A stretch of DNA of 64,000 nt from Nitrosomonas sp. (GTDB lineage: Bacteria > Pseudomonadota > Gammaproteobacteria > Burkholderiales > Nitrosomonadaceae): assembly GCF_019752415.1 (NCBI RefSeq), contig NZ_JAIEME010000010.1, forward strand, positions 18,461-82,460, read 5' to 3'. The notes below the pieces were generated by a model. That model was not told where the DNA came from and searched no databases. It was given only the letters and a program-made list of their open reading frames with translations. Each line of letters begins with the position of its first letter. Position 1 is the first letter of the stretch. Below, piece after piece: positions 15,522 to 37,494 of the stretch. The position numbers were made by a program, and so were the translations under genes.

Positions 15522-16496
15522 TCAAGCTCGGATTGGAATACCCGAGACAACAACACGATTCTCTGCATCATCAATTCCAATTTTTTTGAGAGCATGAACA
15601 AATGCATTGAACTGAACTAAAGGATACTCAGAGGGACCGATAATAAGACGATCGAAAATATTACAGAAATCTATATCCTCGATACCAACCACATTTTTAT
15701 TTAAAGGCAGTTTGTGAACGATTTGTGGAACACTACCAATTACTACAATTTCTTGTTCTACAAGAGTTGATGGCCATAGTTTTGGGGAATAAAAAATCCT
15801 CCATTCGCGCTCCTCTTGAAACCCTTGATGTTTAAGACACATTACATTAACCAAGAGCATAGTGAATATATGATCGCTTAGTTCATCGGGATCAATCGAT
15901 CTCAAGAACATTTGATTCTCTTCGATTCTTTCAATAATGGTATTAATTTCGCTATGTAAATCATCTTTCTCAAGATAGGACACCGGATTAAAACCAATTA
16001 CTAAGTCATCAGGCAAATCCATATTCTTTGGGACTCTAAAAACAATGGCTACGCGCGTTGAGTTTCCTCCAAATGCCCTCCACATCGATAATCTACCATG
16101 CTCATCTTCTTTTTCATCATGTTCAGATACCGATGCAATATACGTTTCCAGCCGAATATTAGGACGCCATTGACTAAATTCTTTAAAAACCTTCTCGGCA
16201 ATACCTGGTGAGCAAGAATCTAGCGCCTCTGAGAATTTATCTTGATTAAATTTTTCTCGAAAAAATGAATTCAGCAGCTCAAATCCATGATTTACCTCTC
16301 GATAGTCTGACATGCACATTGTGTTACGCATCCATAAACGCTTGGTATTAATAATTTTTAGCGCAGATTCTGACGATGTGTAATGTACAAATCTTGCATG
16401 ATTGTTTTCGCTGTAGAAACTTTTTTTACACTTACTAGCGGTGGGTAATAAGATGCTCTCAATCTTGTGCGCGTATTCAAGTTCTTGTGTAGTCAT
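15522..16496 (-). CDS. DUF2971 domain protein
   Basis: This protein of 324 residues has the DUF2971 pattern: FVHYTSSESALKIINTKRLW (about residues 36-55), MSDYREVNHGFELL shortly after, a central RLSMWRAFGG segment, and EEREWRIFYSP near the C-terminus. The biochemical function of this family is not known to me. It is more AT-rich than the repair gene before it or the desulfurase-like gene after it, stands alone on its strand, and has a 411-bp AT-rich upstream region. These are signs of an acquired gene. It converges with the AlkA-type gene with only 18 bp between stops. Confidence 0.75.
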   Translation of the reverse strand: MTTQELEYAHKIESILLPTASKCKKSFYSENNHARFVHYTSSESALKIINTKRLWMRNTMCMSDYREVNHGFELLNSFFREKFNQDKFSEALDSCSPGIAEKVFKEFSQWRPNIRLETYIASVSEHDEKEDEHGRLSMWRAFGGNSTRVAIVFRVPKNMDLPDDLVIGFNPVSYLEKDDLHSEINTIIERIEENQMFLRSIDPDELSDHIFTMLLVNVMCLKHQGFQEEREWRIFYSPKLWPSTLVEQEIVVIGSVPQIVHKLPLNKNVVGIEDIDFCNIFDRLIIGPSEYPLVQFNAFVHALKKIGIDDAENRVVVSGIPIRA

Positions 16497-16907
16497 GGTT
16501 AAAGATTCTTATCAAAAGTTATGCAGGATTGTTTAGTAACACAGTAACCAATCTTATATTCGCTATTCTATTTCTACTATCTTGTTAACATCGTGCTCCA
16601 GGATTGTAAACTCAGGAGTGGCAAGAATTTTAGATAAGTGACTTTTGTTGTTAATTTATGCAATTGTAACTAGCTCTGTGGAAGAACAAGCATAGTTTTT
16701 CCCAGTTTTAAGAAGCTGAGCTAAAATTATGGCGCGAAAAATTAAGTCAATACATACTGTTTATACGATTAGATTAGTAATCTTAAAATTAGAGATTCTA
16801 AGTTTAGGTTTTTACAAGACTTCTCCAAGATCCTAAACATTTACCCACATGAAAATTCTCATTAAGTATTATCATTCGATCTTCTTTCGTTTGATTTCTC
16901 AAAATTA
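16497..16907. other. AT-rich intergenic region without a recognisable gene
   Basis: This stretch of 411 bp separates two divergently transcribed genes, so it must hold both promoters. I see no credible ORF or RNA. A 13-bp odd palindrome AGATTAGTAATCT lies at 16771-16783 and could be a regulator site, though AT-rich palindromes of this size arise by chance. Base composition resembles the DUF2971 gene, not the GC-richer operon that follows. Confidence 0.5.
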
Positions 16908-18065
16908 ATGAAACCAACCTATTTCGACCACAACGCCACCACCTGCGTCGATGATGCCGTGCTGGATGCCATGCTGCCGTACTTCCAGCAGGAATTCGGC
17001 AATGCGTCCAGCCGCCATGGTTATGGCATTACCGCCCGGCGTGCGATTGATAAAGCGCGTAAGCAGGTAGCGGATGCGGTGGGAGTGCAGCCGGTGCAGG
17101 TGATTTTTACTAGCGGCGGTTCGGAAGCCAATAACTTGTTTATTCGCGGTGCGGCGGATAGTTTGAAACCGGGGAATCTTTTCATTAGCGCGATTGAACA
17201 TCCTTGTGTGTTGAAACCGGCGCAAGCGCTGGCGCGTCGTAGTTGTGATGCGTGGAGTGTGCATCAATTAGCAGTGAATCCATCGGGGCAGGTTGACTGG
17301 GATGCTGCTGGCAGCGCCATGCGTGAACACAAACCGGGATTGGTTTCTGTGATGCTGGCGAATAATGAAACCGGTGTCATTCAAGATGTCGCGGGTATTG
17401 CTGAGCTGGCGCGAGTGCAGGGCGCTACCGTGCATACCGACGCGATTCAGGGATTGGGAAAAATCCCGGTGGATTTTGCTGCGCTGAAAGTGCATGCGAT
17501 GACGTTGTCCGCGCACAAGATTTATGGCCCCAAAGGCGCGGCGGCTTTGATTGTCGACAAACGGTTGTTATTAAAACCGCTGATTTATGGCGGCGGGCAT
17601 GAAAACGGGTTGCGTTCCGGCACTGAGAATGTGCCCGCGATTGTGGGTTTTGGTGTTGCCTGCGAATTAGCCCGTTCCCGCTTGGCAGAAACCGCACAGC
17701 CTATTTCTCAACTGCGGGATGATCTGGAAAAAGGGCTGGTTGCCATGGGCGCGGTGATTTTTGGCGCCGGGGCTGCGCGCATCCCGAACACGTGTTATTT
17801 TGCGTTGCCGGATATCGAAGGCGACACGTTGGTGGTTAAGCTGGATAAAGCCGGTTTTGCTGTTGCCGCCGGGGCTGCCTGTTCCAGCGTCAATCCAGGG
17901 CAAAGTCATGTATTGAGCGCGATGCAGGTTGATCCGATGCTCGCGCGCTGTGCGGTGCGCATCAGCTTGGGAAGCCGCAACACACGTGAGCAAGTCGAGG
18001 ATTTTCTGCGCGCAATCCAACGCATTGTTGAAGAATTGCGGCAGATCAGCAGTCTTTCCAGCTAA
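16908..18065 (+). CDS. Cysteine desulfurase-like PLP enzyme (class V aminotransferase fold)
   Basis: The frame of 385 aa follows NifS/IscS throughout: YFDHNATT at the start, FTSGGSEANN (about 68-77), HTDAIQGLGK, the PLP lysine in SAHKIYG (Lys204), RSGTENV, and the catalytic-cysteine loop AACSS (Cys325). The expected reaction is removal of sulfur from L-cysteine as a persulfide. No Fe-S scaffold gene accompanies it. Instead it heads a run with a nucleotidyltransferase, a HIT protein and a desaturase, so it may be a specialised paralog supplying sulfur, or acting as a lyase, in another pathway. Confidence 0.85.
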   Translation: MKPTYFDHNATTCVDDAVLDAMLPYFQQEFGNASSRHGYGITARRAIDKARKQVADAVGVQPVQVIFTSGGSEANNLFIRGAADSLKPGNLFISAIEHPCVLKPAQALARRSCDAWSVHQLAVNPSGQVDWDAAGSAMREHKPGLVSVMLANNETGVIQDVAGIAELARVQGATVHTDAIQGLGKIPVDFAALKVHAMTLSAHKIYGPKGAAALIVDKRLLLKPLIYGGGHENGLRSGTENVPAIVGFGVACELARSRLAETAQPISQLRDDLEKGLVAMGAVIFGAGAARIPNTCYFALPDIEGDTLVVKLDKAGFAVAAGAACSSVNPGQSHVLSAMQVDPMLARCAVRISLGSRNTREQVEDFLRAIQRIVEELRQISSLSS

Positions 18066-23113: not shown

Positions 23114-24259
23114 TTACTCGCCGGTAACGGCTTGGTTGCGTCCCAGTTCTTTTGCCTTGTATAAGCGCGCATCAGCGATAGCCATATAACTGTCAATGGT
23201 GTCCATTTCATCGGGCGTCTTAGTCACGGTGCCGATAGAAACTGTCAAATGTTTAGCACCATCGCTGTAACCATTGAGAATTTTTAGCTCTTCTATACCC
23301 TTTCTTATGATCTCTGCAAATTCCACTGTCCCTTGATGATCCAAGTTAGCCGCTATTACACCGAATTCTTCCCCGCCAAGGCGAAAAGCATAATCGTCAG
23401 GGCGCTGGCAAAGTTTTTTTAATTTTCGGCTTATCTGGATCAACACTTGATCACCTTTGCTGTGGCCATAGTTATCATTAATTCTTTTGAAGAAATCGAT
23501 ATCCAGTATGATTAGAGCAAGATAAATGTTGTGCCGATGAGCCCTTTTAATTTCACGGGCGAATACATTCCTAAAATGGCGGCGATTAAATAAACCAGTG
23601 AGCTGATCGGTCATGGCTAGCGCCTCTAACTTTAAATTGACCTTTCGCAGCTGCTTATTGGCTTTATGCAGTTCAGCTTCGATCTTTTGGCGCTCATAGT
23701 TTTCACGCATTAGCACCAGCGTTCTTGAAGATAAGCTATCGTACATAATCATAACAGTCTCGATGAGTACTCTAATTGAACCGTTCATTTTCTTGTCTGA
23801 AACGATTTTTGCTTCTTCCAAAGACAGTCCTTTATTGACATTTTGAACGACAAAAGCCATTCGTTTGTCATTATCCAAGATGTGGAAGGCTAGCCAGCGA
23901 ATGAGGAATAAAATAATACTTTCAATAATCTCATTCTGCGGCTTGTTAGTTTCCTGCTCTTTAATTTCTACCACTTTGGGTAAGAACGATGAGTGGGTTA
24001 GTTGATGAGATGATAGCCAGGAATCATCGCCGAAGTACTCTATCCAAATAGCTTCCTCAGTTTCAAAATGAAACTCAGCATATTTGGCCAATGCATCAAA
24101 AAAATAATTTATTTCTAAATGATTACCGCGTACTAAGGCCCCTGCCAGTTCATTCAAAAGAGAAATAAGTTTCTGATGCTGCACATCAATTATTTCTATC
24201 CCCGTTTCAAAATTTTTATTCCACGGAAATACTTCAAGTTGATTTATATGTTCAGTCAT
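23114..24259 (-). CDS. Bacteriohemerythrin-GGDEF diguanylate cyclase
   Basis: The 381-aa cytoplasmic sensor has an N-terminal hemerythrin domain whose seven ligands are all present at His28, His64, Glu68, His85, His89, His126 and Asp131, an O2-binding di-iron set. Next comes a helical linker (about 160-215), then a GGDEF domain with DIDFFKRINDNYGHSKGD and catalytic GGEEF (295-299). RPDD at 286-289 lies five residues before it, the classical inhibitory I-site. The protein should make c-di-GMP under control of oxygen or redox state, which is relevant for an obligately O2-using nitrifier. Confidence 0.9.
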   Translation of the reverse strand: MTEHINQLEVFPWNKNFETGIEIIDVQHQKLISLLNELAGALVRGNHLEINYFFDALAKYAEFHFETEEAIWIEYFGDDSWLSSHQLTHSSFLPKVVEIKEQETNKPQNEIIESIILFLIRWLAFHILDNDKRMAFVVQNVNKGLSLEEAKIVSDKKMNGSIRVLIETVMIMYDSLSSRTLVLMRENYERQKIEAELHKANKQLRKVNLKLEALAMTDQLTGLFNRRHFRNVFAREIKRAHRHNIYLALIILDIDFFKRINDNYGHSKGDQVLIQISRKLKKLCQRPDDYAFRLGGEEFGVIAANLDHQGTVEFAEIIRKGIEELKILNGYSDGAKHLTVSIGTVTKTPDEMDTIDSYMAIADARLYKAKELGRNQAVTGE

Positions 24260-31262: not shown

Positions 31263-34200
31263 TTAAGGCCGATTCCAAGATTCCCTCTCTTCTGCGATGT
31301 CTGCCGTTTCGATTTCACGATCCATGCCAACAATTTCATCTTCAATCCAAGACATCACATGCACATCGAAACCTTTACTCAACCATCCACGGAACTGATC
31401 ACGCCTTGCTCTTAGATGCTGACTCCTTGGTCCACTCCAGCAACCGGAGTGAAAATTACAACTGATCCCACTTATAACTCCATCAAGATTTCGGTAATTC
31501 GTAAGTAATGCTCTTGTTAAAGCACCACCAAACTGGTCATCCAGCGAGCTCGGTGCACAGTGCGCAATCATAGAAGCTCGTTCCTCCTGATCTTGTTCGA
31601 TCCAATTTAGAATTAACTGGAGTGGAAATTCGGCAATTGGTGGTATTACTTTCTTTTCATCAAAACTGCCGAATCCACCTTTCAGCCAATTTAATATATC
31701 TACCCGCCATTCTGGAGCAATACTTAGCAGATGAGAAACAACAATCCCCCACGCTTCTGTCGGACTCATACGGCATAGTGATTTGGCCAATGGTTCCACA
31801 TAACCGTCATAGCTCAATCGGTAGTTGCTGCCCATTTGTTGCAAAAGCACATCAAGCAATGGCAGAGCTTTCGTTGAATCATAAGCTATCAGCTTATTAC
31901 ATACACTATGCCAATGGTAAGTATGCATGGTATCCAATTGCTCTTCAAAGTGAGTCTGTGCTGTTGACACTTTAAAAACAAAATCAGGATTCACAGGCCA
32001 AGCATTTTTCTCCAGAACCTGATCCAAAAGATCGACTAGAACATTAGCTGAAGTTTGATCTTCACGTTTAGAAAGCAAGGTAAAAAGACGAACCAATTCA
32101 TTTTGGGATACCGCCCGCCAGCTCATGCCATAACAAAGGCTGCTAAAAATATTTGATCCTATCCATCCCATTTCAAATGCATTCATGCATGCGATTAACA
32201 CCTGATTGTCAAAACCGGAATACCAGACAAGATTGGCAACACGATTGGCGGTTTCTTCGTTAACCAGCAATCCAAGCAAAACCTCGCTCCATTTACTTGG
32301 ATCTCGTTCCTTAAGACCAGCAAGATAGCCTCCAGCACACTGAGAATTTATGGAATCGCTTTTGAATGAAAGTAAAGATATAAGGCGCTTGTTCTCCTTG
32401 TCCGCATTACACAAGGCTTGACCAAAAGTAAACAACGCCCCAGTCCTCGCGCTGCTGCTTACAAGTTTCGGTAACAGGCATTCAAATGCATTATCGTATC
32501 CAGCTACACGTTCCGCCAACGCTCGCACAAGCTTTTTAGGTCGAGTGTGCTTGCGAAGCTCATCTTCAACGCGATAGTCTTCCCATTCATCCCACGTTGT
32601 ATCCAGGACATAGCGCTGGAAACGTGATGCCAAGTTACGCCTCGTAAGACGCCCTTCAAGACGTCGCAAGCGAAAATGCATTGATGAATCTTCTTCATCG
32701 CGATACCGACGTAACCTATCAATAAAAAAGTAATTTAACTTTTGAATATCAGTAATCAAGTCATTTGCAATTTGCTCAAGTATGGAAAAAACCGCCTCAC
32801 GATGAGAGGGAATTTTCAATTGCTCACCCGCTGATTTGATGATTGCCGAATTTGCTTCTCTGCGCAAAGCTTCATTCCAATCTCGTGTCTCATTGACCAA
32901 ACAATCCCAGTAGCACTGAAATTCTTTACACCATTCATCATTAGTCTGGGGGCACCAAAGAACAGCTCTTTCCTTGATTCCTTGGTGCTCAGGGCCAATC
33001 ATCCGAAAATGCATTCCAGATGTATGCAGCGCTGATTCCGCTACTTTTAGTCCAATACGCTTTAATTCATCATCGTCTGAAGTAAGCATTTCTTTCAAGG
33101 CAGGCAGCCGCTCGGTTGGGCTTGCTTCGGTAGCTGCCCATTCTGGACCGATCCGGAATAATGCCAATAAAGTACCTGTTGAATTGTTACTGTTCGTCGC
33201 ATTCTCTGCAACCGCCAACCGAGCGAGTATTCTGGCCGCACGAACAAATGTTGGTTTCCAAACGGCAATTTTCTCCAGCGTCCAAACGAAGCTTTGACGA
33301 TTTTGCTCAAAGGAATAAAGTTCTTCCCGCGACCATGTGCCAAAAGTGTGCTCGATCAGCGCAAGAGTCGCTTCTGATTCGGCTTCTGCAAGAGTGGAAA
33401 GGAAAGATGTGCCTTTGTCCGAACAGAGAAAGTTACGATTTGCATAAATACCGTTCCGACGAAGAATTTCTCGAACAACTGGTGCAGCACAGGTGTCATG
33501 GGCGTAACGGAACATATCCATAAACCAGCCATGCAATGATTCCGGCATGTTCTCAAACGCATTGACGAAATCAAAGCCACGTCCATACCAGTGCCAATAT
33601 TCGCGCCACAAGTGGATGTGCAGTGCCCAGGGGACTATGAATAAAGTTCGTGATCCTTGAAGAATTCGGCGTTCGCGTAATGACTGAACAATTTCCTGAA
33701 ATCTGGACCAACTAACTGCCGAATCAGAGTGTGCGACAAGTTCTGAAATATACTTTGCCTCGGCACCCACCGGATCTTCAAAACCAAAACGGGAAAACAA
33801 AGCGATGTGCCTCATCACCAATGCAACTTGGCGAGCTTCATCGCTCTGTTGTTTCGCATAACCAAAAAGAAAGCGATCCCAGATAGGTACAGTTGCAGGA
33901 GGTTTGAGAATATCATCTGGATTCGCTGCCAGATTCTCGCCAACTGCCTGAGCAACTCGAGGTGAACCTTCGCATATAGCCACCCAACGATCAAGATCCT
34001 TGTTTTTTCCAACGCAGTTTTCAAGGATTAATTTAATTGCTGGATCGGGAAGACGGGGGACTGAAACATATTCAATTTCCGAATCGCTACTTCTATTGCG
34101 CTCGTGATCAAGACTGATTAACTTCAATGACCCGCAGCGATTCTTTAGATGTCCCCATATTTCTGACATTTCCTGTTCAGAAAGCTCGTCCAGAATCAAA

Positions 34201-35042
34201 ATAAGCGGATATTTTGGGTTTTCACGCAACAATTCGCGAAACAATTTTGTTTGTGAAAACTTGGAACCATGTTGAACGTAAAGAACACTGGGCGCGATTT
34301 CTTCCGAGCGCACTGCTTCTAATACTAGGCGAGTTTTCCCAATTCCCGGCTCACCCAATATCCGTATATGCTTTGTTTCTCCCTGCAATTTCTCTCGAAG
34401 CGAATTGATAAGCTGGGATTGATCTTCCGAAAGCGCAATTTGATTGCTCATATGTGCATGTTGCGACCACTCGGATACTGACAAGAAATCATCATCGCTG
34501 CCTCCCACTAAGGAAAGACGTAACGATGGGTAGCGTTCAAAATACGATGCAATTTGGGATTGCCCGAAAATTTCAATTTGCGCGCTTTTATCGGAAAACC
34601 CAGATTTCGCAAAAAGTTCCGAAATTAAGGATTGGCTATCATTTCTTTGCTTAGGTGTCAGGTCAAGGCCAAAACAAACCAATAAATAGTGGCCGTCAAG
34701 CTCAAGAGTTCGCCTAACCTCGGATACCAATTCTCCTGATTTGGATAACAATTCTTTTTCCAATGAGCTTCGCTGCCATGGCTTAAATGTTGTACCGGTT
34801 TTAAGCTGAAATCCATTTCTACCTACTTTCAAGAAAGTATCTTGAGGCAAGCTATGAGCTGATTCTACTTGGGCATCAATTCCACCATCAGAGACATTAA
34901 GGTTTGCTGAAATAGTTACAGCATCAGGCCGTAAGCCAGCATACCTTGCTTCGCAATGAAGTAATTCTCGAAACTTTGCAATAGCGGCTTCAGCACTGAG
35001 ATTTCCTGTTAAATTTGGATTAAACGGCCCAGCTATACTCAT
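31263..35042 (-). CDS. Putative nuclease-STAND NTPase protein (Avs-like defence candidate)
   Basis: The protein is 1259 aa from the ATG at 35040-35042; a GTG 14 codons earlier is possible but overlaps DUF2442. Residues 15-125 resemble a PD-(D/E)xK nuclease core: GGID (53-56) with QLK (79-81) 22 residues on. A P-loop GEPGIGKTR (230-238) and a Walker B LILILDEL (280-287) define a STAND/AAA NTPase. A winged-helix-like stretch (about 400-480) follows, then about 750 helical residues without recognised catalytic motifs, as in sensor arms. The architecture resembles Avs anti-phage proteins but I recognise no named family. It ends an accessory run with DUF2442 and a toxin-antitoxin remnant. The function is inferred from architecture alone. 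Confidence 0.6.
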   Translation of the reverse strand: MSIAGPFNPNLTGNLSAEAAIAKFRELLHCEARYAGLRPDAVTISANLNVSDGGIDAQVESAHSLPQDTFLKVGRNGFQLKTGTTFKPWQRSSLEKELLSKSGELVSEVRRTLELDGHYLLVCFGLDLTPKQRNDSQSLISELFAKSGFSDKSAQIEIFGQSQIASYFERYPSLRLSLVGGSDDDFLSVSEWSQHAHMSNQIALSEDQSQLINSLREKLQGETKHIRILGEPGIGKTRLVLEAVRSEEIAPSVLYVQHGSKFSQTKLFRELLRENPKYPLILILDELSEQEMSEIWGHLKNRCGSLKLISLDHERNRSSDSEIEYVSVPRLPDPAIKLILENCVGKNKDLDRWVAICEGSPRVAQAVGENLAANPDDILKPPATVPIWDRFLFGYAKQQSDEARQVALVMRHIALFSRFGFEDPVGAEAKYISELVAHSDSAVSWSRFQEIVQSLRERRILQGSRTLFIVPWALHIHLWREYWHWYGRGFDFVNAFENMPESLHGWFMDMFRYAHDTCAAPVVREILRRNGIYANRNFLCSDKGTSFLSTLAEAESEATLALIEHTFGTWSREELYSFEQNRQSFVWTLEKIAVWKPTFVRAARILARLAVAENATNSNNSTGTLLALFRIGPEWAATEASPTERLPALKEMLTSDDDELKRIGLKVAESALHTSGMHFRMIGPEHQGIKERAVLWCPQTNDEWCKEFQCYWDCLVNETRDWNEALRREANSAIIKSAGEQLKIPSHREAVFSILEQIANDLITDIQKLNYFFIDRLRRYRDEEDSSMHFRLRRLEGRLTRRNLASRFQRYVLDTTWDEWEDYRVEDELRKHTRPKKLVRALAERVAGYDNAFECLLPKLVSSSARTGALFTFGQALCNADKENKRLISLLSFKSDSINSQCAGGYLAGLKERDPSKWSEVLLGLLVNEETANRVANLVWYSGFDNQVLIACMNAFEMGWIGSNIFSSLCYGMSWRAVSQNELVRLFTLLSKREDQTSANVLVDLLDQVLEKNAWPVNPDFVFKVSTAQTHFEEQLDTMHTYHWHSVCNKLIAYDSTKALPLLDVLLQQMGSNYRLSYDGYVEPLAKSLCRMSPTEAWGIVVSHLLSIAPEWRVDILNWLKGGFGSFDEKKVIPPIAEFPLQLILNWIEQDQEERASMIAHCAPSSLDDQFGGALTRALLTNYRNLDGVISGISCNFHSGCWSGPRSQHLRARRDQFRGWLSKGFDVHVMSWIEDEIVGMDREIETADIAEERESWNRP

Positions 35043-35065
35043 ATAGTTTTTAATCCGTATATAAA

Positions 35066-35392
35066 CTAAGCCAAAGCACACCAAATTTTATTTTTTCCAA
35101 TCTCCTCATGCATCCACACAGGATCAAGATCCGCGCCATTCGGCCAAGTGAGTGCGCCCAATTCTATTCGGACCTGAGTGAATAATTGTTTATCTTTCAG
35201 TGCGGCGAATATACCCGCCTGTTCACCGGAGATTAACTGCGTCATATCAACGGTACCGGTGGTGCCATCGTTGCAAGTCACGGAAAGGCAATAATTGGGC
35301 AGTACAGTCATTGAACGAATACGCCATGGTGCAACTGCTATTCCTTCGATGAAATCTTGTTTAAAAATTGTGTCAAGTGATTGCCTGGTCAT
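35066..35392 (-). CDS. DUF2442 domain protein
   Basis: The product has 108 aa. The core RIRSMTVLPNYCLSVTCNDGTTGTVDMTQLI and the tail ALTWPNGADLDPVWMHEEI match DUF2442, a small fold often encoded beside DUF4160 or RelE-type toxins and therefore suspected to be an antitoxin. No DUF4160 partner is adjacent. It lies 7 nt downstream of the shortened toxin gene and 24 nt upstream of the STAND gene, so it is probably co-transcribed with both. Confidence 0.8.
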   Translation of the reverse strand: MTRQSLDTIFKQDFIEGIAVAPWRIRSMTVLPNYCLSVTCNDGTTGTVDMTQLISGEQAGIFAALKDKQLFTQVRIELGALTWPNGADLDPVWMHEEIGKNKIWCALA

Positions 35393-35398
35393 CGTGTA

Positions 35399-35611
35399 TC
35401 AAGATTCTCTTGGAATATTTTCATCTTTCAGGTTTCTTCTCTGGTGCACTACAGCGAGTACAAAAATTACTTCGTCTTTTATCTCATAGATGATGCGATA
35501 GGAATACAGGAACAGCTCTCTCACATCTTCTTCATTGAGCTCCGGAACGACTCTTCCCATTTTTGGTAACCCGTTTAATTCATCGACTGCCTGCTGCGCC
35601 CAGATTACCAC
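35399..35611 (-). pseudogene. RelE/ParE-type toxin gene with an in-frame internal deletion
   Basis: The 70-residue frame opens like a ParE toxin (VIWAQQAVDELN) and jumps straight to the second half (GLPKMGRVVPELNEEDVREL, then LYSYRIIYEIKDEVIFVLAVVHQRR). ParE toxins are usually 90-105 residues. The missing piece is the helical hairpin between strand 1 and the F-P-x-x-G-R motif, roughly 30-40 residues. The reading frame is intact on both sides. The start overlaps the antitoxin end by 7 nt as in a normal operon. The toxin is probably inactive; a small variant family is the alternative. Confidence 0.65.
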
Positions 35612-35793
35612 GCATCAATTTCCCGTTTAAGTTGTTCGCTTGTCAGCGTTTCAGCTTGTGCGACGGCTTCTTGACCTTTTTTAATCTTATCCAGTACATA
35701 AAGCCGGTACATGATTTCATCCATGTCAGCATCCTCAGGCAACTGATTAATGACTTTCAGTACCTCCTGTTTTATTGCCAGCATATCGTTCAC
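35605..35793 (-). CDS. Antitoxin of a RelBE/ParDE-type pair
   Basis: This short acidic helical protein of 62 aa (LAIKQEVLKVINQLPEDADMDEIMYRLYVLDKIKKGQ, then TLTSEQLKREIDAW) has the form of antitoxins paired with ParE/RelE toxins, whose gene overlaps its 3' end. The N-terminal helices would be the dimerising part. With the toxin damaged, the antitoxin may persist as a repressor of the operon that includes DUF2442 and the STAND gene. It lies 36 bp downstream of ettA. Confidence 0.65.
   Translation of the reverse strand: MNDMLAIKQEVLKVINQLPEDADMDEIMYRLYVLDKIKKGQEAVAQAETLTSEQLKREIDAW

Positions 35794-35829: not shown

Positions 35830-37494
<1,665 letters not shown>

Follow-up and report, generated by a model that had tools for sequence, protein, structure and literature searches.

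A nuclease-STAND-HEAT protein of Nitrosomonas, kin to PD-Lambda-4_A, as a probable anti-phage immune receptor

Is the 1259-residue protein that is encoded behind the EttA gene in a genome of Nitrosomonas sp. an immune receptor directed against phages and, if so, of which kind? The protein, hereinafter the receptor, is the product of the minus-strand open reading frame (ORF) 31263..35042 in a stretch of 64,000 nucleotides (the window; NCBI RefSeq assembly GCF_019752415.1, contig NZ_JAIEME010000010.1, positions 18,461 to 82,460 of the forward strand). The home genome (G000, with the window on contig C7) is 99.93% complete and comprises 108 contigs; L, G and C numbers designate loci, genomes and contigs, respectively. 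We conclude that this single gene probably encodes an NLR/Avs-like immune receptor against phages: the HEAT-like coil would detect an invader, an ATP-driven STAND switch would assemble the protein, and the predicted Mrr-like nuclease at its front would then cut DNA. The anti-phage role is one that we infer; seen directly are the motifs and their invariance, the folds obtained by modelling, a family distribution that is patchy and in part mobile, purifying selection, the presence of other front domains on the same core, and the variability of the spot behind EttA.

A chance ORF is ruled out because full-length homologues are encoded on many other contigs. Of the 7996 candidates scored, 752 matched the receptor at E<=1e-3, with 46-100% identity among the 120 matches listed, the receptor itself included; an alternative start, the upstream TTG at 35084, would extend the protein to 1273 residues. 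The initial annotation had described a GGID...QLK motif, Walker A and B motifs and a long helical C-terminus, and each of these features is confirmed. In an alignment of the receptor with 13 homologues at 47-72% identity (A1), all 14 rows share the DGGIDA signature (residues 52-57), Q79, K81, the Walker A glycines 230, 233 and 235 with lysine 236, and the triplet D285-E286-L287, so that both the Walker A lysine (K236) and the Walker B aspartate (D285) are retained throughout. Comparison with a 71% identical copy from Candidatus Nitricoxidireducens (L014) yielded a nonsynonymous divergence (dN) of 0.19 and a synonymous divergence (dS) of 2.1, the latter probably saturated; the protein is thus under purifying selection. 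The Rfam scan produced no match, and a scan for promoters and terminators was uninformative (6 promoter-like and 6 terminator-like sites, where shuffled sequence gave means of 8.7 and 5.5, respectively).

The AlphaFold models are confident (predicted local distance difference test score, pLDDT, of 84.7 and 86.3, the latter for the C-terminal model) and, together with the Foldseek and VIA fold matches, support the plan first proposed from the sequence, namely, an effector followed by a STAND ATPase and a helical sensor. In the N-terminal part, residues 11-180 show a helix-strand order with pLDDT of 73-95 per 10-residue block; D56 is located just before the strand 57-61, and Q79-K81 at the end of the strand 74-81, which fits the order in which the PD-(D/E)xK motif is placed on the secondary structure elements of such nucleases. 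Comparison by hhalign with the Mrr_cat profile gave a 77% probability (E 2e-5) for the 46-row union with the sister families but only 20% for the clade of the receptor alone; Pfam Mrr_cat does not match the receptor at E<=1, so this likeness is visible only in profile-profile comparison. A comparison with Cap4 (DUF4297), a weak test that included only 3 Cap4 sequences, gave probabilities of 0.1% for the receptor family, 0.4% for the union and 1.9% for PD-Lambda-4_A, which weakly disfavours Cap4 as the closest relative of the nuclease. With the motif invariant and placed at the modelled strands, and with the Mrr-like profile match once the sister families are included, the PD-(D/E)xK-like N-terminus suggested at the outset is supported, and the domain is predicted to be an Mrr-like nuclease that shares the D...QxK motif and profile similarity with the Mrr type IV restriction nuclease domain but, unlike the latter, is fused to a STAND core.

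The front half of the model matches Avs3, which is the best Foldseek hit, as well as NLRs and Apaf-1, and the fold matches of the STAND core also include the Avs5/SIR2-STAND entries 9jap and 9nc9 and CED-4. Residues 346-500 appear winged-helix-like, judged by their position; mean identity to the receptor over the 13 homologues is 69% in this region, compared with 55% in the nuclease and 43% in residues 751-1000. The roughly 750 helical residues noted originally are recovered by modelling, with residues 480-1259 forming helices except for two isolated strand positions. Foldseek and VIA both match this C-terminus to helical-repeat proteins; the 50 VIA matches listed are eukaryotic helical-repeat proteins and one designed protein, which does not exclude bacterial sensors. 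Searches of solved structures by sequence, single or profile, returned nothing useful.

To which of the known systems is the receptor related? Avs1-4 (AVAST), and Avs3 in particular, share its nuclease-STAND-helical sensor plan; in Avs3 the nuclease is Cap4-like and the sensor TPR-like, whereas the sensor of the receptor is HEAT-like, and none of the receptor's 4 PADLOC hits at E<=1 is to an AVAST model, so a named Avs type is rejected. Animal and plant NLRs, Apaf-1 and CED-4 have the NB-ARC/STAND switch fold in common with the receptor but differ from this bacterial protein with its nuclease-like front and HEAT-like sensor. Avs5/SIR2-STAND likewise shares the STAND core but its effector, according to PMC12931631, is a Sir2 domain rather than one with the nuclease motif. 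The original remark that the protein is not recognisable as a named type thus stands with respect to AVAST and requires amendment in another respect because the PADLOC model PD-Lambda-4_A (PDLC03991) matches residues 28-1007 (E 1.5e-40, 136.8 bits; PADLOC models carry no printed cut-off), which makes it the nearest named relative, with the receptor branch placed beside that family. PD-lambda-4 is a defence system of Vassallo et al. 2022 (PMC9519451) and is placed under P-loop NTPase in a table of PMC10952713. We found in the literature no published description of the receptor family, no published explanation of the PD-lambda-4_A mechanism and no published experiment on the receptor protein.

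This match, along with the same length, the DGG[IVL]D...QxK front, the P-loop with its Walker A motif and the long homology shared with the PD-Lambda-4_A relatives, would be compatible with the receptor being the A subunit of a two-gene PD-Lambda-4 system that needs a B partner. However, the same model scores 1022-1071 bits with three proteins of the same genus (L053, L057, L058), the receptor and the PD-Lambda-4_A relatives are only 17-19% identical in the alignment, and the PD-Lambda-4_B model (PDLC03992), which does match in an E. coli control, finds nothing in the home genome at E<=0.001; on this last ground, a complete PD-Lambda-4 is rejected. Furthermore, in a maximum likelihood tree of the core (Walker A onward), the receptor falls within a 14-row clade (support 100/100) that includes one cyanobacterial and one haloarchaeal plasmid protein, whereas the PD-Lambda-4_A proteins form a separate 8-row clade (100/100). 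The tree consists of 27 hand-chosen rows, so that effector counts are not frequencies; its deepest forks are weak (72/94), its end branches are long, and composition deviates in 12 of the 27 rows. The subunit explanation accordingly appears improbable: on these sequence comparisons, the receptor is kin of PD-Lambda-4_A and, judged by the missing partner and by the tree, stands outside PD-Lambda-4. Contig C14 of the home genome carries another receptor (L046:12187-16017, 1047.6 bits), which belongs to the PD-Lambda-4_A type and is disrupted, with one frame of 132 residues and one of 1122; intact relatives are found in L053 and L058 in a similar setting of GreB-like and YchJ-like genes.

The core is not always preceded by the same nuclease. 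Of the 27 rows of the tree, 20 contain DGG[ILVM]D...QxK, 4 contain GHSxGG and the remaining 3, judged by eye, contain DGGED...QxK. The GHSxGG proteins are alpha/beta-hydrolase-like (Pfam matches above cut-off in L056, L099 and L121, and below it in L055); L099 and L121 fall within the PD-Lambda-4_A clade, and L055 together with L056 makes up a separate branch. Because the hydrolase-like rows occupy two places on it, the tree implies two or more exchanges of the front, without settling their direction. In three of the rows (L113, L114, L115), an HTH_37 domain (the first ~100 residues) is fused in front of the nuclease, which suggests self-regulation. The receptors of L123, L124 and L125 show, at residues ~50-80, a nuclease variant with DGGED...QAK/QCK in place of DGGID...QxK. 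Given the different, hydrolase-like front on this core in relatives, the receptor likely represents a new branch of anti-virus receptors with an exchangeable weapon. On balance, we lean somewhat towards a broader view, under which the receptor belongs to an unnamed NLR-like superfamily of bacteria and haloarchaea with one STAND-plus-HEAT core and exchangeable fronts. Some members would carry an Mrr-like nuclease, others an alpha/beta-hydrolase (with two or more exchanges on the tree, one of them within PD-Lambda-4), and still others a nuclease to which an HTH domain for autoregulation is added; PD-lambda-4 would be the sole branch with a tested anti-phage effect.

The family is rare and scattered. 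In the class, 8 of 369 genomes match at E<=1e-20 including the home genome, that is, 7 of 368 others, in 7 families (partial in G222 and in two pieces in G557); in the phylum, 3 of 398 genomes match at the same threshold, the home genome and 2 others (partial in G659). Among 199 related genomes, 9 match at E<=0.001, the close form (at least 79% identity) is confined to the home genome and G063, and the rest are 22-31% identical; a scan of genome contigs with the single-sequence query found only 2 loci. Matches were detected in 16 of 72,556 plasmid records, 3 of them covering 80% or more of the query and none reaching 60% identity, and there was no receptor match in 50,697 phage records. Of two relatives on IMG/VR contigs, one (L161, 47% identical) adjoins genes of tail and tape-measure families and the other (L162, 25% identical) adjoins an integrase gene. 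The surroundings of the relatives in L112, L113 and L119 are housekeeping-like by eye; the survey of neighbours scanned chosen genes without a matched random control, so that the presence of defence genes is a description and not a measured enrichment. About 5 kb from the receptor in L015 (17185-19658) and L047 (3250-5723), we noticed adjacent frames of 139 and 684 residues, NB-ARC-with-repeats-like by eye, apparently a split gene.

The survey of homologues and their neighbours thus reveals an accessory and partly mobile family, and a housekeeping gene is rejected because the family is missing from nearly all genomes searched. A related explanation, a STAND regulator or housekeeping protein of the MalT type, with no role in defence and with the nuclease-like domain a dead remnant, could draw on the match of the maltose-system STAND entry 8bob to the NTPase and on the HTH_37 fusions. 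Nevertheless, it seems very unlikely given that the catalytic motif, invariant in 14 rows, is present in relatives from Nitrosomonas to Haloarcula, that the family occurs in so few genomes of the class, with relatives on plasmids and near phage tail genes, and that no Pfam HTH matches the receptor at E<=1.

If the receptor is an immune receptor, how would it act? In STAND proteins, as outlined in PMC12931631, a central NTPase is combined with a C-terminal sensor and an N-terminal effector, and the order of events proposed here follows this logic. In the proposed scheme, the C-terminal HEAT-like coil would directly bind a phage component, ATP-dependent oligomerisation via the STAND module would then activate the nuclease, and the nuclease would destroy phage or host DNA, resulting in abortive infection; residues 751-1000, the most variable part of the coil, are a candidate recognition surface. 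In the comparison with L014 alone, however, dN in residues 751-1000 (0.24) is hardly above that in the nuclease (0.23). An abortive outcome is also at odds with Vassallo et al. (PMC9519451), who report direct immunity for 7 of the 11 systems that include components for binding or cleaving DNA. The latter result, the Mrr-like nuclease, and the L117 relative, whose gene shares 4 bases with a GmrSD restriction gene and is bordered on the opposite side by a DNA methylase-HNH gene, would all accord with a restriction-type enzyme that recognises invading DNA itself, its helical part reading the DNA and its ATPase acting as motor or gate, in a direct, non-abortive defence. We consider such an enzyme unlikely because the core is of the STAND type and, in some relatives, an alpha/beta-hydrolase replaces the nuclease, so the core is independent of DNA cleavage.

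The initial annotation further placed the gene in one minus-strand run with DUF2442, a ParE-type toxin and its antitoxin. The DUF2442 and ParE assignments are upheld by Pfam, but the ParE gene is a deleted remnant and the antitoxin is only antitoxin-like. Compared with its counterpart in L048, ParE lacks 87 bp in frame, with 9-base stretches that differ at one place at both ends of the lost part (by eye), hence its interpretation as a remnant. The 62-residue ORF reaches the curated cut-off of no family, its one PADLOC hit (to Cas8c, 12.9 bits) being weak, and is called antitoxin-like because its counterpart precedes the intact 99-residue ParE in L048. In DhiTA, experiments have shown a DUF4160 toxin to be paired with a DUF2442 antitoxin (PMC8198452); inspection of the ORF list by eye detected no DUF4160-like ORF beside DUF2442 in the window, so the pair is incomplete here. 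At other EttA loci, a DUF4160 gene precedes DUF2442 in 6 of 43 (L047, L063, L065, L067, L075, L077), the L063 copy being DUF4160 by Pfam with a DhiT match below cut-off. Upstream of the receptor in L014 (7489-7731), there is an 80-residue ORF, HicA toxin-like by eye, that is, a different toxin-antitoxin relic with the same receptor.

The position of DUF2442 before the receptor, in the window and, 26 bases upstream, in L015, as well as the existence of DhiTA, could imply an addiction module in which the receptor, DUF2442 and the ParE remnant stabilise the locus. This is hardly plausible, and such a module is rejected, because at the same spot DUF2442 precedes other cargo, namely, the PDC-M65 pair (L059, L061, L065) and an unknown gene (L048), because ParE is deleted, and because no DUF2442 was noticed by eye beside the relatives whose neighbours were surveyed. 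Most likely, DUF2442 and the ParE remnant are leftovers of toxin-antitoxin modules that occupied the same spot, not parts of the receptor system.

What kind of locus, then, harbours the receptor? The term defence island used at first is too strong for a single gene that sits, next to remnants of toxin-antitoxin modules, at a variable site behind EttA. From 58 full-length EttA hits in 57 genomes, 45 loci besides the window were taken, of which 43 have more than 1.9 kb downstream. Among these 43, we found (in overlapping categories) the HEC-01 A/B pair in 5, the PDC-M65 A/B pair in 3, a broken receptor in 1 (L047) and DUF2442 in 12, so that 8 of the 43 Nitrosomonas loci carry candidate defence pairs; the rest contain unknown genes or genes of other kinds, and HEC-01, PDC-M65, the receptor and DUF2442 are all missing from the most distant 16 loci (L082-L097). 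PADLOC made the assignments in L049 (A, B), L059 (A, B) and L060 (A), and the remaining loci were assigned by BLAST to L049 and L059, with 36-43% identity for the cargo of L060 and L072. In L049, both flanks are as in the window (EttA 98.7%; DUF748 93.6% over the 591 residues present), and HEC-01 replaces the receptor. Because DUF2442 is followed by the receptor at two loci (the window and L015) and by different cargo in L048, L059, L061 and L065, the spot reads as one of cargo exchange behind a toxin-antitoxin relic.

Several other genes at this spot deserve mention. The PDC-M65 candidate pair lies behind EttA in L059 (878-4278), L061 and L065, and the A protein of L059 has an HATPase_c match below cut-off. 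The cargo genes of L048 (348 residues), L051 (260) and L063 (284) have no PADLOC or Pfam match, and the unknown proteins of 204-216 residues behind EttA in L070, L071, L077 and L079 are mutually alike by eye.

Table 1. Coordinates of the receptor gene, its predicted domains and its neighbours in the window
Feature	Coordinates	Strand	Evidence
Nuclease-STAND-HEAT protein (receptor), 1259 residues	31263..35042, stop included	-	ORF from ATG; 752 homologues; dN/dS versus L014
Predicted Mrr-like PD-(D/E)xK nuclease domain, residues 1-180	34503..35042	-	Invariant motif; model; hhalign with sister families
DGGID, residues 52-56, predicted catalytic D56	34875..34889	-	Alignment A1; core tree rows
QLK, residues 79-81, predicted catalytic K81	34800..34808	-	Alignment A1; core tree rows
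Linker and P-loop NTPase domain, residues 181-345	34008..34502	-	AAA_16 E 1e-4 (below cut-off); STAND/NB-ARC fold matches
Walker A GEPGIGKT, residues 230-237	34332..34355	-	Alignment A1; PD-Lambda-4_A comparison
Walker B LILILDEL, residues 280-287	34182..34205	-	Alignment A1
Helical part of STAND module, residues 346-500	33543..34007	-	Model; most conserved region
HEAT-like helical solenoid, predicted sensor, residues 501-1259	31266..33542	-	pLDDT 86.3; Foldseek/VIA; most variable at 751-1000 (13 rows)
DUF2442 protein (orphan DhiA-like antitoxin family)	35066..35392	-	Pfam PF10387, 40.8 bits, above cut-off; 23 bases before receptor ATG
ParE toxin remnant, 70 residues	35399..35611	-	Pfam ParE_toxin above cut-off, profile positions 33-88 of 89 only; 87-bp in-frame deletion
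Antitoxin-like ORF, 62 residues	35605..35793	-	98% identical ORF before intact 99-residue ParE in L048
EttA (ABC-F), housekeeping flank of the spot	35830..37494	-	NCBIfam equivalog NF008775, 977 bits versus cut-off 599
DUF748/OmpA protein, other flank, common to L049	27861..31052	+	PF05359, 899 bits

Elsewhere in the window, a hemerythrin domain is fused to a GGDEF diguanylate cyclase (23114-24259, minus strand), and at 16001-18000, a low-GC kilobase (36.9%) adjoins a high-GC one (55.9%), with the GC skew reversed.

For Nitrosomonas, an ammonia oxidiser, these observations add a marked site, behind EttA, at which candidate defence genes are exchanged. For the family, they link a screened defence gene, PD-lambda-4_A, to the NLR/Avs receptors through a core that occurs with either a nuclease-like or a hydrolase-like front. 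If the superfamily view is right, the obscure PD-lambda-4 would be a bacterial NLR.

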